In this document: positions 1 to 13,153 of the stretch, one piece after another | Numbering within the stretch: the stretch's first letter is position 1 | Layout: each line of letters begins with the position of its first letter | Assembly (NCBI GenBank): GCA_001303225.1 | Contig: LJNI01000052.1 | Location: 1 to 13,153 of the forward strand | Length of the DNA: 13,153 nucleotides | Direction of reading: 5' to 3' | Origin: a candidate division TA06 bacterium DG_78 | GTDB taxonomy: Bacteria; Hydrothermota; Tepidihabitantia; SM23-42 | Program-made: the position numbers and the translations under genes | Notes under the pieces: model-generated | What the model was told of the DNA's origin: nothing | The model's input: the letters and a program-made list of their open reading frames with translations, nothing else | Databases searched by the model: none

Positions 1-86
1 ATCGTCTTTTGGTATGGTCATACAGCAAAAAACGAAGGGCGAATAACGAAACGGGCTGCGTAACCGTTTAACGTAACCTCATTATT

Positions 87-1112
87 ATGCGAGCCGCAGT
101 ATACTATAACAATAAAGACATAAGAATAGAGGAACTCCCCAAACCTCGAATTAGTTCCAACGAACTACTGGTTAAAGTTATTTCGAGTGGGATCTGTGGT
201 AGTGATGTGATGGAGTGGTACCGTATCAAGAAGACGCCACGCATATTAGGTCATGAGATTGCCGGAGAAATTACCGAAGTCGGGAAAGATGTCAAACAGT
301 ATACGATTGGAGACAGGGTTTTTGTGTCTCACCACGTTGCCTGTAATGAATGTCGATACTGTCGTGCAGGATATCACACGGTGTGTGATACATTGAGGTC
401 AACTAATTTTGACCCTGGTGGTTTCGCAGAATTCATTCGTGTACCTGAAATAAATGTGCGCTTTGGAACCTTTGTTCTTCCTGATGAGGTATCATTTGAT
501 GAGGGAACATTTGTTGAACCTCTCGGTTGTGTCATAAGGGGACAGCGATTTGCAGGAGTTAAAAAAGATGATGTGGTATTGGTAATTGGTTCTGGTATTT
601 CTGGACTACTGCACATTAAACTCGCGCGGTTACGAGGAGCGCGTAAAGTGGTTGCTACAGATATCAATGACTACCGCCTCAGCGTAGCTCGTAACATGGG
701 GGCAGATGTCGTCATCAATGCAGAGGAAGATGTGCCTACACTCGTAAAGCAAGCTAATCAAGGCTGTCTTCCCAATGTAGTCATTGTCTGCACGGCTGCG
801 CTCAAAGCCTTTGATCAAGCTTTTAAATCTGTAGACCGTGGAGGCACAGTATTATTATTTGCTCCAACTGCACCTGATGTAAAAATACCGCTACCACTCT
901 ATGAGATATATTTTAAAGGTATTAAGATTGTATTTTCTTATGCTGCGGTTACTCAGGATATTACTGAGGCAATTGAGTTATTAAAAACTAAGAAGGTTAC
1001 TGTATTGGATATGGTCACACATCGGTTTGGCCTTACAGATATACAGAAAGGGTTCAATTTAGTTGCACAGGCAGGTAAATCAATAAAGGTCATTATTGAA
1101 CCACAGAAATAA
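87..1112 (+). CDS. Zinc-dependent medium-chain alcohol/polyol dehydrogenase
   Basis: This 341-aa protein is a full-length zinc-containing MDR dehydrogenase, which oxidises an alcohol or polyol with NAD(P)+ in the cytoplasm. The GroES-like half carries catalytic zinc ligands C37, H56-E57 and E144, and a structural zinc site of four cysteines (C86, C89, C92, C100). The Rossmann half has GSGISG at 168-173. D192 at the end of the second strand suggests NAD over NADP. The family includes sorbitol, threonine and sugar-phosphate dehydrogenases; the substrate cannot be chosen from sequence. The ATG at 87 begins MRAAVYY, the usual family N-terminus, but there is no clear Shine-Dalgarno and no convincing promoter in the 86 bases before it, so it may be co-transcribed with an upstream gene outside the window. 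It converges on enolase. Confidence 0.93.
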   Translation: MRAAVYYNNKDIRIEELPKPRISSNELLVKVISSGICGSDVMEWYRIKKTPRILGHEIAGEITEVGKDVKQYTIGDRVFVSHHVACNECRYCRAGYHTVCDTLRSTNFDPGGFAEFIRVPEINVRFGTFVLPDEVSFDEGTFVEPLGCVIRGQRFAGVKKDDVVLVIGSGISGLLHIKLARLRGARKVVATDINDYRLSVARNMGADVVINAEEDVPTLVKQANQGCLPNVVIVCTAALKAFDQAFKSVDRGGTVLLFAPTAPDVKIPLPLYEIYFKGIKIVFSYAAVTQDITEAIELLKTKKVTVLDMVTHRFGLTDIQKGFNLVAQAGKSIKVIIEPQK

Positions 1113-1130
1113 AAATTCTAAATCCGAAGC

Positions 1131-1221
1131 ACTAAATACTAAACAAATCCAAATCTTTAAATTTTAAATATTTTAAATGTTATTTTGTACATTTGGATTT
1201 ATAATTTGTTTAGGATTTAGG
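1131..1221. repeat. AT-rich imperfect inverted repeat between convergent genes
   Basis: The 206-bp gap between the dehydrogenase stop and the enolase stop holds a long imperfect palindrome. The left arm is about 1131-1155 and the right arm about 1189-1221. The arms pair over CTAAAT-n-CTAAACAAA and TCCAAAT, interrupted by a 6-nt insertion in the right arm, and the centre is a run of TTTAAA/AAATATTTT. A second small perfect hairpin (GAAATT/AATTTC, 3-nt loop) follows at 1227-1241. From memory, similar 'ctaaat..aaacaaat' palindromes are scattered between genes in many uncultured thermophile and groundwater genomes, so this may be a decayed copy of such an intergenic repeat. It could also end transcription of both convergent genes. 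No second copy is in the window. Confidence 0.55.
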
Positions 1222-1318
1222 GTTTTGAAATTAGTAATTTCTAATCAGGATAACTGAATTCAGAAAATAAACCACAAACCTTTACCTAATGTAGATTAGT
1301 GTAGATTTTTTATATCTT

Positions 1319-2605
<1,287 letters not shown>

Positions 2606-2631
2606 TTACTCCTCATTTCTGTCTGTGATTT

Positions 2632-2637
2632 ATTATA
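2632..2637 (-). promoter_or_regulatory. Possible -10 element for eno
   Basis: A perfect TATAAT on the minus strand lies 29 nt before the eno ATG. The -35 region upstream is weak (an AT-rich TTAATA-like hexamer at 17-bp spacing), so this is a tentative promoter. Confidence 0.35.
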
Positions 2638-2689
2638 CGGATAATCATCCTCATTATTAATTACCTACTAATTACAAACCAAAAAATAC

Positions 2690-4264
2690 CTATGGCTGAT
2701 AGCGTAATGGACAAGTTAAACAGCGTGAAGCTTCCTTTTGTAATTCCTCCTTTGATGCCCGAAGTTCAACTTCTTTAAAATCGTGTTTTCTTTCTTCAAT
2801 ATCACGGTGGGGAATACTCATTCTGTTCCTGTCTGTAATAGGTAGAAGTTGCACCTCAGGTTGATACGTCTTTTTTAATAGTTGCGCAATGAATGTTGGC
2901 ATGCATCTGAGATGTAAATCAATACGCTTAGCAATATTCGTTCCATGACCCACAGCGTGGGCAACTGTTGCACTACCAAGGACAGCATCACCACCTGCAA
3001 AGATTTTGGGATGTGATGTTTTTCCATTCTTTGTTATAATATGCCCAAACTTTCCTAATTTTACATGGTCTTTTAAAAAATTCGTGTCAGGATCTTGTCC
3101 AATGGCCATAACGATATTATCCAACCTAACATCGAATTCGCTTTCCTCAATAAGTCTTATTGGACCGTCTCTGCCATTTGGGCATTCGGTTTTTATCATA
3201 GTGACACTATTTTTTTCTATTTTTACTAGTGCCGTCAGTGGAATGATTTCTACACCTTCTTCCTGAGCTTCTTTAAGATTTTCAGATTCAGCAGGCATGT
3301 CCTCAATATTTCTTCTATAGTAAATTTTAACTTGTTCATGTCCTTCTCGTACTAAACTGCGCGCAATATCAATTGCCGTATTACCACCGCCAATAACACC
3401 AACTTTACCTAAATGATATAATTCACCTTTCTTTATACGTCTGAGCACATCAAAACCATCCAAGGTATGTTCTTCACCAGGAATGCCGAGTTTTATAGGT
3501 TTCCATACACCGATTGCAATAAAAATGGCATCATAGTTCTCAAACAGTTCATCTATTGATATATCTTTGCCTATTTCGACGCCACACTTCAGTTCAAACC
3601 CCGTACTCTGCAGAACTTCGATTTCATTATCGAGTACTTCTTGTGGATGTCGAAATTCTGGTATCAGAATACCAAGAACTCCCCCCGGTTTTTCTTCCTT
3701 TTCATAAACAACGACCTTATATCCCCTATGGCTCAGGTAATATGCGGCACTCAATCCACACGGGCCCGATCCTACAACTGCAATTTTTTCCTTCTTCGGT
3801 TTATGCTTATCGTCTGGTATCTCAGTTCTTACGCTAGCTCTCACATATCGTATTGCAACAGGCGCATCAATGCCCTTCCTTGTGCAGTGACATTCACAGG
3901 GGGCAAGACAAATTCTTCCGAGCGTGTTGAAAAAAGGAATAAAAGGATATTTTTGGTCACTATCTGTAGCAATAAAATTTATATAAGCCCAGGGGACAAT
4001 GCCAGCAGGACATGCCTTTTCACAAGGGGATTTTTCATAGCTGATTCCTTTATACGCATCGTAAATATTGAACAGCCAGACCAAGATCCATGCTGTAAGG
4101 AGCCCCCAGAATGCAGCGTTGATTCCTGTCCAGAGGATAATCATCAGAACGATCGAACCATAAAAGATTATGGCTAACGATATTCCGGTCCAGAATCGAC
4201 CTGAATATATTTGTCCACCACCAACGAGAAATGCCGAGATAAGTGCTTCTTTAGCGCGGGCCAT
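2690..4264 (-). CDS. Membrane-anchored GltD-like FAD/NAD(P)H Fe-S oxidoreductase
   Basis: This 524-aa protein joins a membrane anchor to a glutamate-synthase-small-subunit-like flavoprotein. Residues 1-70 form two or three hydrophobic helices with a GGGQIYSG stretch. Next come the two N-terminal Fe-S cysteine clusters of the GltD/AegA/dihydropyrimidine-dehydrogenase family: C81/C85 (CEKACPAG) and C119, C123, C125, C127. An FAD dinucleotide fold follows with GSGPCG at 165-170, then a second NAD(P)H fold with GGGNTA at 292-297, and the FAD-closing GGDA at 424-427. A C-terminal CLTC (515-518) is extra. GltD proteins are normally soluble, so the anchor is unusual. The start overlaps the end of the polyferredoxin gene by 14 nt, implying translational coupling. 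It probably feeds NAD(P)H electrons into that membrane ferredoxin (inference); the partner is unproven. Confidence 0.88.
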   Translation of the reverse strand: MARAKEALISAFLVGGGQIYSGRFWTGISLAIIFYGSIVLMIILWTGINAAFWGLLTAWILVWLFNIYDAYKGISYEKSPCEKACPAGIVPWAYINFIATDSDQKYPFIPFFNTLGRICLAPCECHCTRKGIDAPVAIRYVRASVRTEIPDDKHKPKKEKIAVVGSGPCGLSAAYYLSHRGYKVVVYEKEEKPGGVLGILIPEFRHPQEVLDNEIEVLQSTGFELKCGVEIGKDISIDELFENYDAIFIAIGVWKPIKLGIPGEEHTLDGFDVLRRIKKGELYHLGKVGVIGGGNTAIDIARSLVREGHEQVKIYYRRNIEDMPAESENLKEAQEEGVEIIPLTALVKIEKNSVTMIKTECPNGRDGPIRLIEESEFDVRLDNIVMAIGQDPDTNFLKDHVKLGKFGHIITKNGKTSHPKIFAGGDAVLGSATVAHAVGHGTNIAKRIDLHLRCMPTFIAQLLKKTYQPEVQLLPITDRNRMSIPHRDIEERKHDFKEVELRASKEELQKEASRCLTCPLRYQP

Positions 4265-5045
4265 GATTGATTGCTTTTGTTGGACAGATTTTTACACAAT
4301 CGAGACATCGTATACAATCGATATTTTTTGGTGAACGCCATATCGGAACGTGCATAGGGCACACCATCTGGCACGATTCACATTCAATACATTTTTCCTT
4401 ATCGATTTTCATCTGGAGGAGACTAAAATTGTTGAATACAGAATAAATTGCACCAATCGGGCAAAACGTGCGACAGAAAAATCGTTTGATTGATAAAGAA
4501 AGCAGTAATACTACGATTAATATAGCGATCTTCATATAGAAATGCCAGCCTATTAATGCTTTTAGATCACCACTTGAATCAGCAAGCACTAAGGGAATTC
4601 CTGCGATCAATGCGCCATCAGGGCAGAGTTTACAGAACCATGGTTCAGTAGTTACATAAGCAATAATACCGGCAACTCCGATGAGCACACCATATTTGAT
4701 ATAGGAACACCACTGTGGCAGAATCATTTTTACGGATTTTGCTTTGTATAGTAAATCCTGTAAAAAACCGAATGGACATAACCAACCGCATGACATTCTT
4801 CCGATGATAATCCCGATTGCACCGAAGAATCCTGCAATATAAAAGGGGATAAGTTTGAGACCGATGAAGTGTTGAAGCGCACCCATTGGACATGAGGTTA
4901 CTGCGAGAGGACACCCCCAGCAATTGAGGATTGGCGTGCAATACCGCTTTAATATACCCTGGTAAATTCCACCGCTAAACAACGCAGGAATGTATGAGTT
5001 TTGAATAATTGTGGCAATAATCTGAACAATGCGTTTCAAACTCAT
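4251..5045 (-). CDS. Membrane polyferredoxin (NapH/CcoG-like 4Fe-4S protein)
   Basis: This 264-aa integral membrane protein has four or five hydrophobic segments. They carry cysteine clusters typical of the NapH/PceC/YccM-type Fer4_5 fold: C36/C42/C45/C52, CGWLCP at 86-91, CKLCP at 138-142 and CRTFCP at 191-196. The C-terminal soluble part is a two-cluster ferredoxin: C219-x2-C222-x2-C225-x3-C229 and C244-x2-C247-x2-C250-x3-C254. Such proteins pass electrons between the membrane or cytoplasm and periplasmic acceptors. Its ATG overlaps the preceding gene's TGA (ATGA) and its end overlaps the flavoprotein start, so the three are translated as a unit. The context suggests that it relays electrons from the GltD-like protein to the periplasmic side. 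Confidence 0.9.
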   Translation of the reverse strand: MSLKRIVQIIATIIQNSYIPALFSGGIYQGILKRYCTPILNCWGCPLAVTSCPMGALQHFIGLKLIPFYIAGFFGAIGIIIGRMSCGWLCPFGFLQDLLYKAKSVKMILPQWCSYIKYGVLIGVAGIIAYVTTEPWFCKLCPDGALIAGIPLVLADSSGDLKALIGWHFYMKIAILIVVLLLSLSIKRFFCRTFCPIGAIYSVFNNFSLLQMKIDKEKCIECESCQMVCPMHVPIWRSPKNIDCIRCLDCVKICPTKAINHGPR

Positions 5046-5344
5046 TCAATACCCATACAGGAAAGACATATAATTGAACCGACAGTTTCGGTTTCGACAA
5101 AGTCGCCGAGCATACCGCCGTAGATAATTCCAGCGATAAAAACAGCTGTTATGACAAAAATCAACAACATCCTTACAATAGCAATTCTTCTGGCAAATCT
5201 GTACAAGAAATAGATAGCAGTGCCTATGCTGGCAAGATAAAGCACTAACCGGAGGATTGGAATTCTATCAAGAACCCTAAAAATAAAGAAGTATAAAAGA
5301 ACCAAAACTACGGCTATTCCTACAAGGTTTTCAATTTTTTTCAT
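5042..5344 (-). CDS. Small three-helix membrane protein with C-terminal CxxC
   Basis: This 100-aa protein is not one I can name. It has three predicted membrane helices (about 7-24, 31-48, 56-78). Positive charges K2/K3 and the RFARR loop at 49-53 place the N-terminus and that loop in the cytoplasm. The C-terminal tail would then lie in the periplasm. That tail ends in C93-L-S-C96, a possible redox dithiol or metal site four residues from the end. The AAGGAG Shine-Dalgarno at 5350-5355 is well placed. The TGA stop overlaps the next gene's ATG, so this UGA is a genuine terminator. Its position between the TlpA/DUF6029 genes and the polyferredoxin suggests a relay or anchor in the same electron path. 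Confidence 0.78.
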   Translation of the reverse strand: MKKIENLVGIAVVLVLLYFFIFRVLDRIPILRLVLYLASIGTAIYFLYRFARRIAIVRMLLIFVITAVFIAGIIYGGMLGDFVETETVGSIICLSCMGIE

Positions 5345-5400
5345 TTTGACTCCTTACCTGTATCTCTGTAATCTATATATGTTATCACCGTAATCATTCT

Positions 5401-6906
5401 TCAGAATATGCTGGTGAGTACTGCCTTAACACCCCTAAGTGGTTCTTCGAAACGACATACGCCGCCCGAACAGATTAACCCACCCTTTTCCGCACCAACC
5501 CTAATTCTTAAATTATGACGGTGTGTTAAATCGAGACTTAACTCAGCCAGCGGCCAAGCTGTTTCATCGCCATACTTTTCGACCAGCCATTCTGGTATAC
5601 GGTTACGGCGTTCATAGCGTAAAGTAAACACAAACAGTTCAGGTTTTCCTATTGAAAAAAATGCTGCATGGTCGTAATAATCACTTGTATCGCTCGAAAT
5701 AAAATTATGTTCATACCCTGTTTCAATAAAGAATGAGCCAAAATTGTATGTTAACTCAATGTTTGGTTTGGTCTCAATCTTCTTTTCAATTGGCAGTTCA
5801 ATTCCCTGTTTTAAGACCCGTTCCACACCGCCATTGATTTCTAAATCATAAGTTGTGTATATGGTCATTTTGGCTACGTGCTCGAGCACACCGTCCATGT
5901 TGTCGCTGATAGTGGCAATTTCTTTAAATTTATTCACTGTTTCGTCGTGCGTTGATATTTTATTGTGGTCGAGTTCGAGTGTTAAGAAGTCAAGTGGCGA
6001 GACGATGAACGATACTCCATAGCCAACTTCATCAAGCCCGCGATTCACTGAGATACCTGATTTTATGGGTGTCGGAGGTTCATTATAACGGTAACCAGGG
6101 TTACCAAATCCAATATCATTATAATCCATAAATTGACATGAAATACCCAATCCTGGAGTTGCGAAACTCGTAGTAAAGAGTATTCCATCGCCTCGCACTC
6201 TTCCACCAATTACATCATCACTTCCCCATTGTCGGGCATATTCAAAATATGCGTCAAATGGTCCAATTGTGAAATCAATGTCACCTCCGAATAATTCAGT
6301 AAAAGCCTTTGGGGTCAAGTCAGTGGTTTGATTTATTCTTACATATCGGCTACCCAAAGTTGTTTTGGGTATCAATTTAGTGTTGAAATTTATACCTCTA
6401 ATTTGATCAGAGGTGTGCTCCTCATTCTTTATTTTATATTTGTTTTCTTCAAAAAATATGCATCTCGGCTCACCTGATAGAAGTGTTAATTGACTTCCGA
6501 GATATTTGAAGTCAACTTTCACACCGTAGAGTGAATTATCAATACGAAAATCTTCATCAAGGAATGCATTCAAAGCAAGCCCCCGACCAAATGTTGTATA
6601 ATAAGTGCCATAAAGGATATTTACTGCATCTTTGCTATAAATTGCTGCATAATCAAGATAATTAAGTTTTTCCTGTACTGATAATGATGGACTCCAGAGA
6701 AAAAGAACACCTTTCAGCGTTATATCACCATAATTTACTGAAAGTTTTAATTTATCTTCGAGATGTTCTTTATAGTTTGAGGTATCTAACTCTTTATCAA
6801 CAAATACCCAGTACTCAGCATGGTTTGAACCACTGATTCTTATATCTGCTGCCGCGATAAAAAAGAGAGGAATTATTAACAGGAGTGGACTATTCTTCAG
6901 ATTCAT
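5401..6906 (-). CDS. DUF6029-like outer-membrane beta-barrel protein
   Basis: This 501-aa protein has a signal peptide (hydrophobic stretch up to about A19). The rest is a repetitive alternation of beta-strands rich in aromatic residues, ending in phenylalanine (LTSIF) as outer-membrane barrels do. Near the end it has GLICSGGVCR, the two-cysteine C-x4-C motif that I associate with DUF6029 proteins of T9SS-bearing bacteria. I chose the ATG at 6906 over a TTG six bases upstream. It overlaps the end of the TlpA-like gene by 17 nt, so the two are co-translated. The function of DUF6029 is unknown. Co-transcription with a thioredoxin and electron-transfer genes suggests a redox or disulphide role at the cell surface. 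The TGA stop is taken as real because the next in-frame codons do not look like protein. Confidence 0.75.
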   Translation of the reverse strand: MNLKNSPLLLIIPLFFIAAADIRISGSNHAEYWVFVDKELDTSNYKEHLEDKLKLSVNYGDITLKGVLFLWSPSLSVQEKLNYLDYAAIYSKDAVNILYGTYYTTFGRGLALNAFLDEDFRIDNSLYGVKVDFKYLGSQLTLLSGEPRCIFFEENKYKIKNEEHTSDQIRGINFNTKLIPKTTLGSRYVRINQTTDLTPKAFTELFGGDIDFTIGPFDAYFEYARQWGSDDVIGGRVRGDGILFTTSFATPGLGISCQFMDYNDIGFGNPGYRYNEPPTPIKSGISVNRGLDEVGYGVSFIVSPLDFLTLELDHNKISTHDETVNKFKEIATISDNMDGVLEHVAKMTIYTTYDLEINGGVERVLKQGIELPIEKKIETKPNIELTYNFGSFFIETGYEHNFISSDTSDYYDHAAFFSIGKPELFVFTLRYERRNRIPEWLVEKYGDETAWPLAELSLDLTHRHNLRIRVGAEKGGLICSGGVCRFEEPLRGVKAVLTSIF

Positions 6907-7402
6907 GTCCAAATTCTTTCATAACCAACTCGTATAATTTATTAACGATTATCTCTTCATCACCAGGTTTATAGCCTTGATGAATAAAGATGATGTTTTT
7001 ATTTTGCTCAATAATAAAACTGGTTGGCATTGTTCGTACATTATACAGGTCACGCATCATATTTTCGGGGTCGAGCAGTACAGTATACTGCCATTTTTTA
7101 CTTCGCGCAAATGGTTTAACCTGAGGAACAGACCGCATTTTGTCTTCGCTAATCGCAAGGAAATTGACACCGATTGAATCGAGTTCGTCATAATACGGTC
7201 TTATTGCGTCCAATTCCTTAATACACATGGTACACCACAACGCCCAGAAACTGATAAAAACAGGGCCTGTTTCGAGCAAAGAGTCGAGATACACTGTATT
7301 ACCATCGATATCTATTAGATTGAAATCAGGGGCAACATTGAAATCTATTTCCTGAGCACTGAGGTAAAGTATAAGAATAGGTATTAAAAGTAGTTTTTTC
7401 AC
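6890..7402 (-). CDS. TlpA/ResA-like exported thioredoxin-family protein
   Basis: This 170-aa protein has a signal peptide (residues 1 to about 16) followed by a redoxin/TlpA thioredoxin fold. Visible are the WALWCTMC active site with C57 and C60, and the cis-proline loop MPTSF with P126. It would act in the periplasm as a thiol-disulphide oxidoreductase. The start is GTG at 7402, preceded by AAAGGAG with a 5-nt gap. It is the first gene of the operon running to the flavoprotein, with a strong promoter just upstream. Here the active site is all cysteine, unlike the selenocysteine-containing thioredoxin-like protein encoded near 12 kb. It may reduce that protein or other exported partners (inference). 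Confidence 0.9.
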   Translation of the reverse strand: MKKLLLIPILILYLSAQEIDFNVAPDFNLIDIDGNTVYLDSLLETGPVFISFWALWCTMCIKELDAIRPYYDELDSIGVNFLAISEDKMRSVPQVKPFARSKKWQYTVLLDPENMMRDLYNVRTMPTSFIIEQNKNIIFIHQGYKPGDEEIIVNKLYELVMKEFGHESEE

Positions 7403-7449
7403 TATTGCTCCTTTGGTCTTTGCTTTAATGTTTTAACTATATGTTACTC

Positions 7450-7477
7450 ATTATATAAAAAAATCCAGTATTGTCAA
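7450..7477 (-). promoter_or_regulatory. Sigma70-type promoter of the TlpA/DUF6029 operon
   Basis: TTGACA (7472-7477), 16-bp spacer, TATAAT (7450-7455) on the minus strand. The expected start point is about 40 nt upstream of the GTG of the TlpA-like gene. Confidence 0.8.
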
Positions 7478-7482
7478 TAAAA

Positions 7483-7514
7483 TGAGAGGAGGTGTTGAAA
7501 TCCACCCCCTCTCA
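7483..7514 (-). terminator. Rho-independent terminator after gene A
   Basis: On the minus strand an 11-12 bp stem (arms 7484-7494 and 7503-7513, one mismatch) with an 8-nt loop lies 29 nt after the gene A stop. It is followed by TTTTATT. That T-tract runs straight into the -35 box of the next operon's promoter, so termination and re-initiation are tightly packed. Confidence 0.75.
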
Positions 7515-7542
7515 CTGGTAGTAAATTATGCTTTTGGTACTG

Positions 7543-8460
7543 TTACCTTACAACCACCTTACCTGTTGTATTAAAAACATCGCTTTCAAATCGGTACAGA
7601 TAGATGCCAGCATCGACAGATATGCCGTTGTCGTCTTTCCTATCCCACTTCACAGATTCCGGATTTCCATATGATAGTCCCTTCAAGGTTCTTACATGAC
7701 GGCCAAGTACGTCAAAGAGAGTAATCTGATATTTCATGACACCGGGTACTTGGAACATGAAATAGGTTGCTTTAGTGCATGGATTAGGTGCTACACTTAT
7801 GCTTGAGAATGTTATTTTTTCTTTCGTATCTTCGTGGATGCCAGTAAAGTCAAGAACAATGTCATCGGCGTAAACCCACGCCGAAGTAATTGAACCTCAA
7901 CCACTGCACCATTTTGACGTGTCAAATAGGGCAATTTGGAGTTTGCTTACCTCGAGTGGATTAACTCCAGAGAGGTTTGTTAATTCGTCGGTGATGTTGA
8001 AAGAGTAGTTATTCCAGTTATCATCAGCAGCAATGATTAAATGAAGAGTAGGAGAATCAGTCCAGGGACAGTCAGCATCACTGAAGTAGCATATTCGCGT
8101 CTCACCCAATATAGTGTTTGATGCATTCATATAGGAAACGATGACTGCAGCGCCAGCCCAATCACCAGTGGTGTTGTCATATGCATGCAGTTTTGCATTA
8201 CAGCTAAAATTTATATCAGTACTTGGAAGGGCAACTAGTTGGTGTAGAGAGGCAAAACCATTGCTCGATGATTTTAAGACGAGAGCTTCATAATTTTGAT
8301 CACCGTCATAGTACGTTGCTCGGTCAATTATAAAAGGAATGCCGAGTGTGGTTTGTTGCCAACCAACATCGAGCTCTTGTTCAAAATCGCCATTTGTCAA
8401 AAGATTATCAGCAAGTACGATACTTACAAGGGTTACCATCACAATGAGGTATTTTTTCAT
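7543..8460 (-). CDS. Gene A: exported selenoprotein with CxxU and T9SS sorting domain
   Basis: This 305-aa product is read through one in-frame UGA (7897-7899, residue 188). A signal peptide (MKKYLIVMVTLVSIVLA) leads into a beta-rich carbohydrate-binding-like domain (NLLTNGDFE..., ending at AWVYADDIVLD). After that comes a por/T9SS type A C-terminal sorting domain (APNP... GIYLYRF... GKVVVR). The UGA lies inside the first domain, in W-C185-S-G-UGA-G-S. Selenocysteine there gives a C-x-x-U redox motif, and the strand after it completes the domain. The frame is unbroken on both sides, and a bacterial SECIS-like hairpin follows the UGA by 12 nt. The ATG at 8460 has AGGAGG at 8465-8470. The gene lies directly downstream of selA but has its own promoter. 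The function is unknown. The alternative, a nonsense mutation, is less likely given two further cases nearby. Confidence 0.82.
7865..7884 (-). promoter_or_regulatory. bSECIS-like element of gene A
   Basis: Downstream of the UGA at 7899-7897, the mRNA can fold a perfect 7-bp stem (UCGGCGU with ACGCCGA) with a GGGUUU apical loop. There are 19 nt between the UGA and the loop, and the loop starts with G. This matches the known bacterial rule of roughly 16-37 nt and a G in the first two loop positions. Confidence 0.75.
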
Positions 8461-8517
8461 GAAACCTCCTAAGCGTTTTATTATAGCCACATTTCTGTTT
8501 ACAACCATTTACATATA

Positions 8518-8545
8518 ATTATATATATAATTCTTATTTTGTCAA
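8518..8545 (-). promoter_or_regulatory. Sigma70-type promoter of gene A
   Basis: TTGACA (8540-8545), 16-bp spacer, TATAAT (8518-8523) on the minus strand, giving a leader of about 50 nt before the ATG at 8460. A perfect 8-bp palindrome lies 13 bp upstream of the -35. Confidence 0.8.
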
Positions 8546-8558
8546 GGTCTCTGTGTAG

Positions 8559-8580
8559 GATTTCTGAAAAAACAGAAATC
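8559..8580. repeat. Perfect 8-bp inverted repeat upstream of the gene A promoter
   Basis: GATTTCTG, six A, CAGAAATC. It lies just upstream of the gene A -35 box and 161 nt past the selA stop. No T-run follows on either strand, so it is a poor terminator. A protein-binding operator for gene A or an RNA hairpin is possible. The rest of the 280-bp gap between selA and gene A holds only a weak 59-codon plus-strand open frame (8539-8718) with no ribosome binding site. Confidence 0.45.
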
Positions 8581-8740
8581 TGTGATTATCCACCAAGCTG
8601 TGTGGCGGAATTTCAGTATGATTACGATGATGATAAGTGCCGAATTTTCGTTATAATCCATAATCAAGAGCGCGAGGAAATACTTTTTCTGGGTTCTCTG
8701 TTTACTCTATATAAATAGGTGTGTTTCAATGGGTGTAGAT

Positions 8741-10168
8741 TTATCTGCTCTTTAGGATTGTTGTGAGTGCTTCTATAATGATTTTTTCCTCACCTTTGAG
8801 GACAGTACGGAAATCGAGGAAAAAATTCCCTCCTTTTACACGACCAAAGACAGGCGTTCTGTACTGCCGAAGGGCCCTGGCGAGATCATCGACCCGCATG
8901 TTATTTGGTTTTATTGACACGACATACGTTGGAAGTTCTTCTGTGCTGAGCGACCCTCCACCGATTTCAGAAACTGAAGGATCGACGGATACATCTACAT
9001 GCGGACCCAAATGCTTTTTTATATAATTTGCACATCTCATAGCCTGTCGTTTGATGCTTGGTAGTGGTCTGAGCAACATGCTAAGCACGCTATGATTCTT
9101 TATCACTTCGCTCCTGTTTAACAGAAACAATTGTAGTGTTGTTTCTAATAATGCACTGGTAAATTTATCACTCCGTAATACCCTTGCTAAAGGATTCTTT
9201 TTGAGCTTTTCAATGTATTTCCTTTTGCCAATTATAATACCGCACTGAGGACCGCCAATGAGTTTATCACCACTAAAACAGACAATGTCTGCTCCTGTTT
9301 TGATGCTTTCTTGTGCAACTGGTTCTTTTGGTAAACCAAATTTCGAGAAGTCTATAAGAGCACCACTTCCAAGGTCGTGGATGACTGGTATAGCATATTT
9401 TTTCCCTAACATCACCAGTTCACCAAGCGAAACCTGTTTCGTAAAACCAGTGATGCGGTAATTTGACTGATGGACTCGTAATAGTGCTGCGGTGTTGTCA
9501 TTAATCGCATGTTCATAGTCTCTCAGATGCGTGCGATTTGTTGTGCCGACTTCCTTCATGAGTGCACCACTCTGTGCCAGCATTTCCGGTATTCGAAAAC
9601 TGCCACCGATTTCGATGAGTTGTCCCCTCGAAATAATTACTTCTCTATTTTTGGCGAGCGTGTTCAGTATTAACAGCGTAGCAGCAGCGTTATTATTGAC
9701 AATCATGCCAGCCTCAGTTCCTGTTAAAATGTGGAGAAGGCGATTGATCCTGAGGTGCCTATCAGTTCTTCTTCCTTCATCGTCAATCTGAAGTCTGATA
9801 TAACCAAGAGAGAGTGCTTTCAATCCAGAAGCCATGCGTATGTTAACAGGCGCCCTCCCTAAGCCAGTATGCAAAACAATACCGGTCGCATTAATGGCGT
9901 AACAAAAATAAGGATTGAGTATATCATGCAATGCCTGCACAATATTCTGTTTGAGATTTATAACGTCAAATTGCTCACCAGCGATAAGGCGTTTTCGATA
10001 TTCATTAATGTTATTACGAATGAGCGCAGTGAGGTATTGTGGGTCTATTATATTTGAGAACTCTTTAATTTCTGGTTCATTGAGTATTTTATCGATCGAT
10101 GGTATTTGTCGTAGAATTTTCTTATTGCTGGAGCATCGCTGCCTGTTTTTTTTCAATTTTTGTTTCAC
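8741..10168 (-). CDS. selA: L-seryl-tRNA(Sec) selenium transferase (selenocysteine synthase)
   Basis: This 475-aa cytoplasmic PLP enzyme converts Ser-tRNA(Sec) to Sec-tRNA(Sec) using selenophosphate. The N-terminal LRQIPSIDKIL matches the SelA tRNA-binding domain. The core has NATGIVLHTGLGRAP (93-107), the TGTEAG/NNNAAA cofactor region (149-163), HDLGSG (264-269) and the PLP lysine K302 in SGDKLIGGPQ. The C-terminus has the RTPVFGRV motif (437-444). Its length is close to the usual 460-470. The start is GTG at 10168, with no Shine-Dalgarno, but a promoter -10 box ends only 5 nt before it, so the mRNA is probably leaderless. No selB, selD or tRNA(Sec) gene is visible in the window. It stands alone between genes B and A, which both carry in-frame UGA codons. 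Confidence 0.96.
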   Translation of the reverse strand: MKQKLKKNRQRCSSNKKILRQIPSIDKILNEPEIKEFSNIIDPQYLTALIRNNINEYRKRLIAGEQFDVINLKQNIVQALHDILNPYFCYAINATGIVLHTGLGRAPVNIRMASGLKALSLGYIRLQIDDEGRRTDRHLRINRLLHILTGTEAGMIVNNNAAATLLILNTLAKNREVIISRGQLIEIGGSFRIPEMLAQSGALMKEVGTTNRTHLRDYEHAINDNTAALLRVHQSNYRITGFTKQVSLGELVMLGKKYAIPVIHDLGSGALIDFSKFGLPKEPVAQESIKTGADIVCFSGDKLIGGPQCGIIIGKRKYIEKLKKNPLARVLRSDKFTSALLETTLQLFLLNRSEVIKNHSVLSMLLRPLPSIKRQAMRCANYIKKHLGPHVDVSVDPSVSEIGGGSLSTEELPTYVVSIKPNNMRVDDLARALRQYRTPVFGRVKGGNFFLDFRTVLKGEEKIIIEALTTILKSR

Positions 10169-10173
10169 AAAAA

Positions 10174-10201
10174 AGTATAATTAAATGATTGGGTATGTCA
10201 A
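10174..10201 (-). promoter_or_regulatory. Sigma70-type promoter of selA, predicted leaderless
   Basis: TTGACA (10196-10201), 16-bp spacer, TATACT (10174-10179) on the minus strand. Only five T residues separate the -10 box from the GTG start, so transcription should begin at or within the start codon. Confidence 0.75.
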
Positions 10202-10238
10202 GATTGCTTTAGAACAATTGAGCAAGCTACTCGTCTAT

Positions 10239-10481
10239 CTATTTTTTTCTTTTTCGTCTCTTCTTAAGAGCACCTAAGAGACTCACTGCATCTTCGAATG
10301 ATACATCTCCCTGCCTGTACGCAGTGAGGATACTGCCGATATTTTTTTTACCAAAACGCCGTTTTTCAGATTCGGGTTTTTTCTCCATCGTCTCATGGAG
10401 TCGGTTAAACACCTTGCGTTTTTCGTTCCAATTGAGCGATTTGAATAGCAACATTATAGAACCAATGACAGGCTTTTCCAT
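10239..10481 (-). CDS. Small basic hypothetical protein
   Basis: This 80-aa protein is not one I recognise. It is strongly basic, with a helical, charged middle (EKRKVFNRLHETMEKK) and a lysine/arginine-rich tail (KKRRKRKK). It has no signal peptide or membrane segment, so it is probably cytoplasmic and may bind nucleic acid (inference from charge only). The ATG at 10481 has an excellent AAGGAGG Shine-Dalgarno and its own promoter 57 nt upstream, so expression is well supported. It lies between gene B and selA, but nothing in its sequence ties it to selenium metabolism. Confidence 0.75.
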   Translation of the reverse strand: MEKPVIGSIMLLFKSLNWNEKRKVFNRLHETMEKKPESEKRRFGKKNIGSILTAYRQGDVSFEDAVSLLGALKKRRKRKK

Positions 10482-10534
10482 TTATTCCTCCTTACCTGCA
10501 CTCGGAAATTTCTATTACTTTTTACTTTCTTTAA

Positions 10535-10562
10535 ATTATATGAGGAAATCTACAATTGTCAA
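10535..10562 (-). promoter_or_regulatory. Sigma70-type promoter of the small basic protein
   Basis: TTGACA (10557-10562), 16-bp spacer, TATAAT (10535-10540) on the minus strand, with a leader of about 47 nt and a strong Shine-Dalgarno before the ATG. Confidence 0.8.
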
Positions 10563-10610
10563 TTACCTATGTAGAGAGCTCTGAAAAAGTATCCAACGCT
10601 CTCAAGATTA

Positions 10611-10636
10611 CCCCATAAGTTTAACACCTTACGGGG
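10611..10636 (-). terminator. GC-rich hairpin downstream of gene B
   Basis: Minus-strand RNA forms CCCCGUAAG paired with CUUAUGGGG, 9 bp including one G-U pair, with an 8-nt loop. The same position is an A-C mismatch on the plus strand, which favours the minus-strand transcript. It lies 75 nt after the gene B stop and has no T-tract, so it may stabilise the 3' end rather than terminate alone. The surrounding 10563-10710 holds no gene that I can support. Confidence 0.45.
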
Positions 10637-10710
10637 ATAACAGACAGATTACAGTGATATTTCAGCGAGTAGTATCGTTGTAAATCTAGTGGAGTTTTAC
10701 TTTGTGTATC

Positions 10711-11433
10711 TTATTTAATCAAAGTTACCTTTGTCATTACCGATTGGTTTTCACTTTTCAATATCAGCAGATACATACCAAGAGGAACAGTTCTCCCTCG
10801 ATCATCAGTCGCATCCCACGTCACATGTTTAACAGAAATTGGTTGGATAAACTGTTTTATTAATTTACCACTACAATCGTAGATTTGTATGGTAACGTTC
10901 TCGGTCTGCAATCGTATTTCATAGTTGATATCTAAATTTTTAATGAATGGATTGGGGTAGACATGGAACACTGGCGATTCTGTTTGAGTGTGTAGATTTT
11001 CATATCCTTCTTCAATACCGAGTCCTACATTGGTGTAGAGATTGATTGAATCACGGAGACCAGGATTACCCAGCGAGGCAACCCGGAGATTGGCTATCAG
11101 CGTGCCTTCGGTGTCAGAGGTATTTACATCCATATCAATACTTGCATTTACCTCGCCAGCCGCGAGGGTGTCGTATCTCAATACGCCTGGAGGACTTCAA
11201 CTACCACCGATGCACCATGTCACATACCAACTTGATGGAACATCATCAATTATATCACAATATAACTCATAGATATCTAACTCTGTGCCGGTATTTTCGA
11301 GACGGAAAAAGAACTTCGCAACCTCCCAAGGATTCACGATTTGAAAGGTATCATTCGTACAGGTAAAATCAAAACTGTATTGTGCAAAGAGGGGCAAGAC
11401 AATGATTGCAATGCAGCTCAATTTCTTTAGCAT
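10711..11433 (-). CDS. Gene B: exported selenoprotein with C-x4-U and T9SS sorting domain
   Basis: This 240-aa product is read through one in-frame UGA (11197-11199, residue 79). A signal peptide (MLKKLSCIAIIVLPLFAQ) precedes a beta-sandwich domain with S-W-Y-V-T-W-C74-I-G-G-S-UGA-S-P-P-G, then L-x-x-G-E-type strands. A T9SS type A sorting domain follows (VYPNPF... PLGMYLLIL... VTLIK). I recall exported proteins of T9SS bacteria with a 'W-x-x-x-x-C-x-x-x-x-C-x-P-P-G' segment at this place, so the UGA would replace the second, disulphide-partner cysteine. Frame and style are continuous across the UGA, and a SECIS-like hairpin follows. The ATG at 11433 uses a GGGAGGT Shine-Dalgarno (11437-11443) that overlaps the gene C stop, so B is the second gene of an operon with C. 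The function is unknown. Confidence 0.82.
11172..11185 (-). promoter_or_regulatory. bSECIS-like element of gene B
   Basis: After the UGA at 11199-11197 the mRNA can form a perfect 5-bp stem (CGUAU with AUACG) with a UGAG loop, plus one more G-C pair beyond a mismatch. There are 16 nt between the UGA and the loop, and G is in the second loop position. It is the shortest of the three candidates. Confidence 0.6.
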
Positions 11434-11442
11434 TGGACCTCC

Positions 11443-12198
11443 CTAATCAGTGGTTATTCTTTTATCAACGATCGCCTGGAGTACCTGTTTTGTCTCGATG
11501 TCTTGAACAAAAGCAACGATGCCCAGTTTTTCTGTATTCCAATGATCTTGAATATAAAAATCATCTTCTTTAACAATTGAATCTGGGTAAAATAAATCAA
11601 CAGAAACACCTTGTCCATTTAGATTCATTTCTCTAACCACAAAATAGAATATTGAATCAGAAGCACCCGATTGTATAAAATAGACGCTGTCTTCATATAA
11701 CACAAAGAATAATCGATAATTACCGTTTTCTATTGAATCAATAGAAACAATATGTAGTTTCAGATTCAATATAGAAGAGACCAAATTTTTTTCCATGTGT
11801 AATCTTAATTTCGGTGCAATATTTCTTTCTTTGATGATGTAGCTTTCGAATAATGAATAATTTTCTTCAGGATGTTCTGCCCAGATTATTCCGCTCGTTC
11901 CATCAAATACAGTTGCTGGATGAGAAGTTACTCCATAGAAAGATTCACGGTCAGAGACGTACTCAGGACTTAATGTATCATTGCTACCATAATGGTAGGC
12001 GATCACGGCTACGCTATCGCCGTATTCAGTAGCTACGCTATCCAGCGCATCTTCAGCCCAAGGGCAGTATGTTCAACGAGCATTTGTAAAAAATTCAGCG
12101 AGAACTATGCGTCCTGTTGGTTCTTCTTGTATTATCGGTGCTTCAGAACATGATAGTGCGAGCAGGAGGATGATGGTTAAGAGAGAGATTTGTTTCAT
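11443..12198 (-). CDS. Gene C: Omp28/thioredoxin-like lipoprotein with UxxC (selenoprotein)
   Basis: This 251-aa product is read through one in-frame UGA (12073-12075, residue 42). The N-terminus is a lipoprotein signal (LLLALSC, lipidated C17). A thioredoxin-like domain of the Omp28 type follows: E-F-F-T-N-A-R-UGA-T-Y-C45-P-W-A, where relatives have a C-x-Y-C-P active site. The UGA therefore replaces the nucleophilic cysteine, giving U42-x-x-C45. Later landmarks fit: AYHYG (67-71), the cis-proline loop TSHPATVFDG (91-100, P94), and a C-terminal IVAFVQD strand typical of Omp28 domains. A SECIS-like hairpin lies within the expected distance. Without read-through only a late GTG (12006) would be left, missing the signal and the active site. 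It is the first gene of the C-B operon and would act as an envelope thiol/selenol oxidoreductase. Confidence 0.9.
12031..12052 (-). promoter_or_regulatory. bSECIS-like element of gene C
   Basis: After the UGA at 12075-12073 the mRNA can fold UGCGCU with AGCGUA (six pairs including one G-U), extended by two pairs beyond an A-G mismatch, with a GGAU apical loop. There are 29 nt between the UGA and the loop, and the loop starts GG, like the GG-starting loop of the E. coli fdhF element. Confidence 0.75.
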
Positions 12199-12204
12199 AT
12201 TTCT

Positions 12205-12233
12205 ATTATAGATATAATTACAGATAAAGTCAA
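12205..12233 (-). promoter_or_regulatory. Sigma70-type promoter of operon C-B, predicted leaderless
   Basis: TTGACT (12228-12233), 17-bp spacer, TATAAT (12205-12210) on the minus strand. Only six bases separate the -10 box from the ATG at 12198, and there is no Shine-Dalgarno, so the transcript should start at about the A of ATG. Confidence 0.8.
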
Positions 12234-12277
12234 TACGCACAATAGTGGTAGGTTAATTTTGAGGATTCATCTGCTCG

Positions 12278-12679
12278 TTAGTACTCTAGAAGGTCAGCAA
12301 GCGTTAAATTATCAAAGACTTTTTCGATTGCTGTGCTCAGTTTAGACCAGAGTTTCCTTGTCTGACAAGAATTTTTTAGAGAGCAGATTTGTGGATTATC
12401 CAAACAGTCGATTGGTGTAAAAGACCCTTCTAAGATGCGATAAATTTCCGCAACCGTAATTTTTTCGGGATTTCGTATCAGATAGTAGCCACCTTTTGAA
12501 CCTCTCGTTGCCCTCACGACGCCGGCATTTTTAAGTGCGATTACAATCTGTTCCAAATATTTTTTTGATATCTTTTCACACTCAGCGATATTTCTGAGAA
12601 GCACAGGACCTTTCTGGTAATTCTTTGCGAGTTCCACTAAGAGTCGCAGTCCGTAACGAAATCTCGATGATAGCTTCAT
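12278..12679 (-). CDS. Rrf2-family transcriptional regulator with three cluster cysteines
   Basis: This 133-aa protein is an Rrf2/IscR-type winged-helix regulator. MKLSSRFRYGLRLL starts the DNA-binding domain, ISKKYLEQIV is the recognition-helix region, and RGSKGGYYL (59-67) is the wing. Three cysteines, C92, C99 and C105, have the usual [2Fe-2S] spacing of this family, so it probably senses iron-sulphur status, redox state or nitric oxide. The ATG at 12679 overlaps the TGA of the lipoprotein gene (ATGA), so the two are translationally coupled; a longer in-frame extension upstream is rejected because it runs through that gene. Its targets are unknown. Autoregulation at the divergent promoter near 13.1 kb, or control of the neighbouring selenoprotein operon, are possibilities only. 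Confidence 0.92.
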   Translation of the reverse strand: MKLSSRFRYGLRLLVELAKNYQKGPVLLRNIAECEKISKKYLEQIVIALKNAGVVRATRGSKGGYYLIRNPEKITVAEIYRILEGSFTPIDCLDNPQICSLKNSCQTRKLWSKLSTAIEKVFDNLTLADLLEY

Positions 12680-13071
12680 TCCAATACGTACAGTATAATT
12701 GTATCTGCTGGTCCAAATATCGTAGGATACCAGAGCTGAGATGGCCACTGTGGGTTCTGTAGACTGTCCAGGAATATTGCAACATAACCGGTTCCCTGCT
12801 GTTGTGATGTACCATACACGACACTATCAATTTCGAAAAATCCAACTAGAGCGTCTTGGGTCTGTGTTGTGACTTCACGTGTACGCCAATAATCTAGGTC
12901 ATTAGGATTGAGGTCTCGTATTTTGAGTATCAGACCACTAATACCTGTTGTACTATCGGTTTCTTCTCGTGCATAACCATAGAGATGTGTAAAATATATT
13001 TCTTCCTCTTCGGTTGCACACTGTACGACTAATAAAGCAGTAAACACAGTAATTAAAAACAGTTGTTTCAT
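12676..13071 (-). CDS. Hypothetical lipoprotein upstream of the Rrf2 regulator
   Basis: This 131-aa protein has a lipoprotein signal, MKQLFLITVFTALLVVQC, with the likely lipidated C18. A short acidic linker leads into a beta-rich domain (IYFTHLYGYARE, GISGLILKIRDLNP, VGFFEIDSV, GYVAIFLDS). The pattern resembles small Ig-like or carboxypeptidase-regulatory-like folds, but I recognise no family. The ATG at 13071 has GGAG four bases upstream and a clear promoter. The TGA stop overlaps the regulator's ATG, so this UGA is a true stop. A lipoprotein co-expressed with an Fe-S sensor may report or respond to envelope redox conditions; this is a guess from context. Confidence 0.8.
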   Translation of the reverse strand: MKQLFLITVFTALLVVQCATEEEEIYFTHLYGYAREETDSTTGISGLILKIRDLNPNDLDYWRTREVTTQTQDALVGFFEIDSVVYGTSQQQGTGYVAIFLDSLQNPQWPSQLWYPTIFGPADTIILYVLE

Positions 13072-13086
13072 TTTGACTCCGTAGCA

Positions 13087-13114
13087 AGTATACCAATAGT
13101 ACTTGAAAAGTCAA
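13087..13114 (-). promoter_or_regulatory. Sigma70-type promoter of the lipoprotein-rrf2 operon
   Basis: TTGACT (13109-13114), 16-bp spacer, TATACT (13087-13092) on the minus strand. Its -35 box abuts the -35 box of a divergent plus-strand promoter. Confidence 0.78.
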
Positions 13115-13130
13115 GACATTTGGATATACT
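13103..13130 (+). promoter_or_regulatory. Divergent promoter at the right edge
   Basis: TTGAAA (13103-13108), 16-bp spacer, TATACT (13125-13130) on the plus strand, ending seven bases before an ATG at 13138. It is back to back with the lipoprotein promoter. The pair forms an imperfect palindrome from 13087 to 13130. Confidence 0.65.
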
Positions 13131-13137
13131 TTTGCTA

Positions 13138-13153
13138 ATGAAATTACTGATAT
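13138..13153 (+). CDS. Start of a divergent gene, cut by the window end
   Basis: Only ATG and four further codons (M-K-L-L-I) are visible. The beginning resembles a signal peptide or membrane segment. It is reported because a good promoter ends seven bases upstream, which would give a leaderless transcript like those of selA and operon C-B. Nothing can be said about its function. Confidence 0.4.

Follow-up and report, generated by a model that had tools for sequence, protein, structure and literature searches.

Selenocysteine (Sec) is best known from intracellular enzymes, and relays of the ResA/TlpA-CcdA and DsbD types feed CxxC proteins of the periplasm with reducing power that has crossed the inner membrane. 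Here we describe three genes, designated A, B and C, in a 13,153-nucleotide stretch of DNA (the window) from candidate division TA06 bacterium DG_78 (GenBank assembly GCA_001303225.1, contig LJNI01000052.1, positions 1 to 13,153), each with a single in-frame UGA codon and features of an exported protein. The consulted part of a 2026 selenoprotein review (PMC13188914) lists 119 families, among them NF045500 under the name GOS_C (UxxC), which comes from an ocean survey and has been known since 2008 (PMC2398784, seen in part). Families placed by name in the envelope or outside the cell also appear there (an MtrB/PioB-type barrel, a TonB-dependent receptor and the ExtKL cytochrome; PMC13188914), and the same portion of the ocean survey holds secreted-protease-like selenoproteins (PMC2398784). 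Like the window, the SAO and Tso operons, as described in the consulted part of the review (PMC13188914), have several selenoprotein genes side by side together with partner genes; A, B and C, however, belong to other families, and no Sao or Tso model matched them at E<=0.001. Selenoproteins without Cys homologues may escape detection, according to the consulted text from the authors of one selenoprotein finder (PMC12013277), and family A, described below, is close to that case.

We conclude that A, B and C are probably selenoproteins exported to the envelope and surface of a WOR-3 bacterium, where they would most likely form the outermost part of a thiol/selenol relay across the envelope. The initial annotation of this DNA had proposed a new extracytoplasmic selenoprotein system; that three exported proteins contain Sec and are linked to selA is supported, but the claim was too broad, since exported families and GOS_C were already known. 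Exported selenoproteins and a relative of C are thus not new, and it is the clustered export of A, B and C that is new in this form. In an NCBIfam scan no selenoprotein model matched A or B, the only matches being to models of the type IX secretion system (T9SS) tail, plus FlgD-like ones for B. No entry in the consulted part of the review table fits A or B by name and motif (PMC13188914), and A and B, set apart by these models, names and motifs, look like new selenoprotein families. As in known T9SS cargo, both carry a C-terminal sorting domain and SprA is encoded in the genome; none of the entries in that part of the table is named as T9SS cargo (PMC13188914). A literature search of partial coverage found no account of such exported WOR-3 selenoproteins.

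Three genes with an in-frame UGA codon

All three genes lie on the minus strand. Gene C (11443..12198, 251 aa) has its UGA at 12073..12075 in the motif UTYC, gene B (10711..11433, 240 aa) at 11197..11199 in CIGGSU, and gene A (7543..8460, 305 aa) at 7897..7899 in CSGUG. The initial annotation had reported exactly one such codon per gene, in these motifs, with selA among the three genes; both statements are borne out, as each gene holds one in-frame UGA and no more, and selA, encoding selenocysteine synthase (minus strand, 10168-8741; TIGR00474, 528 bits), sits between A and B. Two other genes of the window, encoding a small CxxC membrane protein and a DUF6029 protein, end at UGA; the codon is therefore not simply a sense codon there and keeps its usual meaning elsewhere. 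A recoded genome was rejected as an explanation, given that other genes stop at UGA.

Computation supports well for A, and to a good degree for B but less for C, that SelB and tRNA-Sec insert Sec at the UGA with the help of a hairpin just downstream. The sequences support a pairing of Sec with Cys in A and B and, in C, a thioredoxin-like UxxC motif that begins with Sec.

Conservation and spread of family A

The profile of family A gave 118 listed matches in 50 of the 147 genomes of the phylum. An in-frame TGA was present in 110 of these matches (one also with a TAA, and one with two TGAs); seven of the other eight stop short of the UGA column and the last is a Cys copy. The residue at the column was read in fetched loci only. 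Counting genes distinct by their DNA, it was Sec (U) in 68, Cys in one (L174) and another residue in none, with 10 rows too short. Chance is excluded for A by such a column, in which 68 distinct genes share the UGA and the single departure is Cys.

Among 12 named loci related to gene A, 11 are contigs of candidate division WOR-3 or Candidatus Stahlbacteria. The twelfth is labelled Candidatus Eisenbacteria; the one named match from outside the phylum, on contig L144 (8931-11207), has this label, a UGA (HCUGG) and the same hairpin, and both transfer and mis-binning are conceivable. One protein-database search with the domain of A returned a single match with 17% covered, and a viral scan found no relative of A.

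The tail of A passes TIGR04183 (27.0 bits, cut-off 23), and there was no Pfam match for the protein at E<=0.001; sorting by T9SS is indicated wherever members of the family were tested. In the AlphaFold model the domain is mostly confident and, to judge from its strand order, jelly-roll-like; the mean predicted local distance difference test (pLDDT) score is 67 for the whole model, in which the tail is poor, and 76 for the block around Sec188. Compared with solved chains, the profile of A had one weak sequence match (E 8e-4), to a GH31 enzyme in its C-terminal part.

The Cys partner of Sec in family A changes position. It stands directly before Sec in 44 of the 68 distinct A domains, none of which has Cys at alignment column 146, while 17 of the remaining 24 have Cys at this distal column, which is residue 100 in the model of A; the vicinal and distal Cys never occur together. 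The seven domains with neither are those of the window (CSGU), its sister with UPGC, one with CAGU, one with Cys four residues past Sec, a pair of GRSGUGG copies for which no partner is obvious, and the Cys copy. On a tree of A the distal form must have arisen independently at least twice, since well-supported branches require both changes, and not 17 times. A partner that moves in this way is the trace expected of a needed bond, and points to a Cys-Sec bond in A.

SECIS hairpins

For the selenocysteine insertion sequence (SECIS) we used the published bacterial form (PMC13188914), i.e. a hairpin 16-37 nt downstream of the UGA, with a G early in the loop and a minimum free energy <= -7.5 kcal/mol. 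Filtering for U or Cys in >=85% of aligned matches and for three genomes flagged 59 conserved UGA sites, of which five on the strand opposite the Sec genes were dropped. The remaining 54 sites, in 21 stretches, comprised 21 of A, 19 of mid-length Omp28 proteins, 10 of the short C type, three of long Omp28 proteins and one of B; the stretches were mostly chosen for holding UGA matches, so that these sites are not a survey.

A hairpin at -7.5 kcal/mol or better followed 53 of the 54 sites, as against 53 of 386 random codons of the same genes, and one at -10 or better followed 39 of 54 as against 16 of 386. The sole site above -7.5 was an A in L120 (-7.3). Mean energies of the families lay between -11.2 and -11.8, those of the synonymous-codon shuffles (40 for each) between -3.6 and -6.4, and 37 of the 54 sites individually had p<=0.05 against their 40 shuffles. 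The distance from UGA to loop was mostly 18-20 nt in A, 16-17 in the C type, 21-22 in mid-length Omp28 and 23 in long Omp28; in a wider set of A (n = 66) it was 20 nt in 49, 17 in 12, 23 in four and 26 in one.

The hairpin of A in the window (7866..7883) is clear, with a GGUU loop 20 nt from the UGA and -13.2 kcal/mol (p 0.049, 40 synonymous shuffles). Its stem covaries: in 56 distinct 24-mers, 333 of 336 cells over six pairs are paired, with 38 compensatory, and over seven pairs 364 of 392 are paired, where shuffling gives 327.5 on average (sd 2.8) and at most 340, and a slide of the stem by one gives 132 or 172. The stem couples two residues of the protein, which read AKVF in 39 of 66 cases, AEVS in 14, ARVL in six, E/F in three, and R/F, W/Y (the window), Q/C and A/A in one each.

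The other two hairpins are less distinct, and the initial annotation, which had placed a SECIS-like hairpin after each UGA, was right clearly for A, fairly for B and weakly for C. In B the hairpin (11151..11167) has a GGCUG loop 35 nt from the UGA and -11.3 kcal/mol (p 0.15); it is present in both UGA-bearing orthologues, and -7.5 is reached by none of nine Cys orthologues. In C the putative hairpin (12034..12049; GGAU loop, 29 nt) has -7.9 kcal/mol (p 0.37). The 17-nt hairpin of the Sec relatives of C is absent from the window gene, and one of eight Cys orthologues of C also has a hairpin at -7.5. The SECIS of gene C, with selD not found, is the weakest local point.

Genes B and C and their relatives

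The tail of B lies over both the Pfam and the NCBIfam T9SS cut-offs (Por_Secre_tail 37.7 bits, cut-off 27). Its AlphaFold model (mean pLDDT 75.5, residues 71-80 at 94) can be read as a beta-sandwich, a name again taken from the order of strands. Among 11 database matches to B, the UGA column holds Cys in two and Trp in three, where the domain also lacks the other Cys, and is not reached in six. In the loci of 27 genomes, with some rows doubled, it holds Cys in 16, U in four and gaps in 73, and Trp, Thr and Leu once each; the Thr and Leu come from two remote T9SS proteins. Orthologues of B have Cys or UGA at the column, and Trp is found only in duplicate domains with neither of the two cysteines.

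One such relative is encoded in the genome of the window itself (G000 contig C122, L119:8860-9945), with two domains, of which one has both cysteines and the other Tyr and Trp; a long Omp28 gene with a UGA (L119:6969-8801) directly precedes it. In another genome (G005 contig C73, L054; 53% complete) a TAA lies inside the B homologue, for which sequence error or decay is possible. The motif C-x-G-G-x-C/U is common to B (CIGGSU, 10711-11433) and the C-terminus of the DUF6029 protein (CSGGVC, window 5401-6906), by descent or convergence.

Gene C matches Pfam Omp28 (39.2 bits, cut-off 34.9) and, over positions 39-264 of 377, NF045500 (57.2 bits, E 1.8e-15). Like GOS_C/NF045500, it appears to encode a thioredoxin-like UxxC protein of Omp28 type in which Sec and Cys exchange; unlike that family, it scores far under the curated cut-off of 200, matches in part, and has its closest orthologues with Cys. 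Judged by sequence, C is a distant relative of this Omp28-related selenoprotein and is not filed here as a member. Its comparison with solved chains gave two archaeal thioredoxins (E 7e-4 and 0.016). All 54 of the 59 protein-database matches that reach the UGA column have Cys there, and the other five, including the window's own fragment, begin downstream; in the loci of the 27 genomes, with overlapping loci counted twice, the column has U in 35 rows, Cys in 17 and gaps in three. A Sec-bearing short-C frame of 819 aa elsewhere (L107:9206-11662) also matches a subtilase domain (residues 453-796), a possible fusion or frame error.

In line with the initial annotation, the Cys homologues continue beyond the UGA column. 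Its expectation of Cys or Sec alone at that column holds for A and C; B also has Trp, in domains without either cysteine, and Thr and Leu, in remote T9SS proteins. Export of all three proteins, also claimed there, agrees with the T9SS-tail matches of A and B, while the N-terminus of C, as read from the sequence, is lipoprotein-like (..LALSC-SEAP) with a non-canonical lipobox.

These exported Cys-Sec pairs could instead be mainly structural or protective, with a selenenylsulfide that staples the exposed beta-sandwich domains of A and B and re-forms after damage, and with redox genes that merely keep periplasmic disulfides. The modelled beta-rich domains with T9SS tails would suit such a role, as would the Cys partner of A, which is nearly always retained while its position shifts, and the joint loss of both cysteines in the duplicate domains of B. 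A plain structural bond could, however, use Cys, yet only one of 69 distinct A genes does, and the Omp28-type members have an active-site-like UxxC. We consider this explanation unlikely. The phrase structural-type domains in the initial annotation fits A and B, but in A a pair of Cys and Sec is what the shifting partner suggests.

Selenocysteine machinery

The initial annotation had looked to selB, selC and selD in the source genome. Of these, selB (353.6 bits) and tRNA-Sec (70.3 bits) were found together on contig C62, and selD could not be found in the bin (79.5% complete), where the best match reached 75.8 bits against a cut-off of 125. The gene is over the cut-off in 20 of 23 genomes of the family, each time with an in-frame TGA, which stands in a GUxxK-type motif in all eight fetched loci (L126-L133) and matches the UxxK motif in the consulted part of the review table (PMC13188914); SelD is itself probably a selenoprotein in this family of genomes. 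The three genomes without selD over the cut-off are that of the window, G005 (53% complete) and G024 (94%, selB present). G024, which has no selD, C or A, was considered as a case of co-loss and dropped, since selB was found in it. Across the phylum, selB (E<=1e-60) occurs in 61 of 147 genomes, namely 45 of the 50 with A and 16 of the 97 others (Fisher 1.2e-18, a value that treats related genomes as independent). The SprA translocon is over its cut-off in the genome of the window (226.9 bits with neighbours in frame, cut-off 200).

Were the UGA read as another residue, or were the genes decaying pseudogenes with a nonsense codon, the missing selD and the weak hairpin of C would be readily understood. 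Such an account is very improbable: the UGA column is fixed over a phylum, Sec and Cys exchange, the hairpins covary, selB co-occurs and the T9SS tails lie downstream of the UGA. Furthermore, 12 of the 54 UGA-bearing frames themselves end at UGA (one of them, in L113, contains another TGA and is possibly broken). Pseudogenes were rejected on the conservation and on the tails downstream.

Gene neighborhood and a possible relay

Read along the minus strand, the genes of the window are, in order, an Rrf2 regulator, C, B, a small ORF, selA, A, a ResA-like thioredoxin, a DUF6029 protein, a small CxxC protein, a NapH-like polyferredoxin, a GltD-like flavoprotein and enolase. The Rrf2-family regulator upstream of C (12281..12682) matches PF02082 with 135 bits, and the small ORF between B and selA (10239..10481, 80 aa) matches no family at cut-off. 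The ResA/TlpA-like thioredoxin (6890..7402; WCTMC) is over the cut-off for AhpC-TSA (77.2 bits) and has 74 bits with the ResA model, whose cut-off is 170. The DUF6029 protein (5401..6906; PF19494 89.7 bits, cut-off 27), presumably an outer-membrane barrel, has its CSGGVC at the end. The small membrane-type protein (5042..5344) ends in a C-terminal CLSC and has no family match; it and the ResA-like gene are placed by synteny as well. The NapH-like membrane polyferredoxin (4251..5045) is over the cut-off for Fer4_5 and has 61 bits with TIGR02163 (cut-off 213), and the GltD/YgfK-like NAD(P)H flavoprotein (2690..4264) has 114 bits with Pyr_redox_2 and 345 bits with NF009410 (cut-off 516). The initial annotation was silent on these adjacent redox genes and on the large spread of family A.

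The same neighbors recur. Nine fetched stretches have a short C that is of the main type and bears Sec. In eight of them (G022, G017, G009, G020, G006, G008, G021 and G013; exception G010), ResA, DUF6029, small CxxC and NapH genes come after it, and in G017, G006 and G021 GltD does so too. A Sec-bearing short C lies <2 kb from DUF6029 in 18 of 19 genomes of the order, the window's genome not counted and G010 again the exception. The DUF6029 proteins of these genomes end in C-x-G-G-x-C, resembling the C-x-G-G-x-U of B, and in G093 and G094 A and DUF6029 are ~3 kb apart by coordinates.

From these neighbors a relay can be proposed in which the GltD-like flavoprotein would take electrons from NAD(P)H and hand them on to the membrane, where the NapH-like ferredoxin and the small CxxC protein would receive them. 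This step would reduce the periplasmic ResA, which in turn would serve the CSGGVC of the DUF6029 protein, and from there electrons may reach UxxC proteins of Omp28 type at the surface; A and B, delivered by T9SS, would be their partners or substrates. At such exposed sites Sec would offer fast reaction and survival of re-oxidation. Compared with the ResA/TlpA-CcdA and DsbD relays, the NapH-like ferredoxin and GltD-like flavoprotein would stand in the place of CcdA or DsbD, DUF6029 would be added and the ends would be Sec. The direction of electrons, the order of steps, the localizations and the substrate are what we infer, direction and order being taken from family names of which several had matches below cut-off. 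In its fullest form the proposal is of a Sec-based extracellular redox system that carries NAD(P)H electrons over both membranes, via the ferredoxin, a ResA-like carrier and the DUF6029 barrel, to the Cys/Sec pairs of T9SS proteins, with A as a large, almost all-Sec family outside the cell; this we put forward tentatively, as possible rather than probable.

In more than one genome the Sec-making genes and the exported thiol/selenol proteins are linked. A run in G010 (L108:5602-18599) contains an Rrf2 gene, two long Omp28 selenoproteins, Cys forms of B and C, selD, a double-cubane reductase with its activase, selA and selB, and in G006 (L116:11985-15823), where selD lies near such genes, SaoX-, SaoP- and SaoA-like ABC transporter genes, all under cut-offs, come after it. 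As another alternative, the surface proteins may act on a selenium compound, metal or metalloid, by binding or reduction, so as to scavenge selenium or handle organometals; this would account for their location near selA and, in relatives, near selD and a Sao-like importer. Sao and mercury-linked selenoproteins do stand in the consulted part of the review table (PMC13188914). The Sao-like matches, however, reach 40 of 300, 150 of 295 and 260 of 360 bits, no Sao-like gene is among those of the window, and the steady neighbors of Sec-bearing C are redox genes; we regard this role as rather improbable, more so than the structural one.

Several observations weigh against exported selenoproteins at the end of a relay. 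On the side of Sec, the hairpin of B is not significant alone, that of C falls just inside the energy limit, and selD is missing from the bin. Most orthologues of B and C carry Cys, and one C homologue has Cys at the column yet two TGAs elsewhere (L024, G005 contig C73, 53% complete), where sequence error or decay is possible. Five genomes with A have no strong selB (G005, 53% complete; G016, 66%; G092, 91%; G112, 90%; G118, 88%), and the lone Cys copy of A (L174, G105, 4113-4706) retains a SECIS-like hairpin of -12.7 kcal/mol after its Cys codon, perhaps from recent loss of Sec. On the side of the relay, the ResA, NapH and GltD matches are all under their NCBIfam cut-offs. In the window it is A that adjoins ResA, and C is ~4.5 kb from DUF6029 with A between; in G010 a long distance separates DUF6029 from the Sec-bearing C gene. 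In 21 stretches from outside the order (20 and L144), the surroundings of A showed no relay gene. DUF6029 occurs in 90 of the 147 genomes, including 45 of the 50 with A, and many of these genomes are without selB; the relay hence does not need Sec, and the chain is wider than the use of Sec. Should the relay be wrong, the conclusion on Sec is unaffected.

Implications

A single candidate phylum holds more than 100 matches to family A, which uses Sec almost exclusively and has tails of the T9SS type, and the SECIS of this family shapes the protein to the point that two residues change jointly. If the relay proposed here is true, DUF6029 and Omp28 proteins would gain a testable function, that of surface thiol/selenol chemistry.

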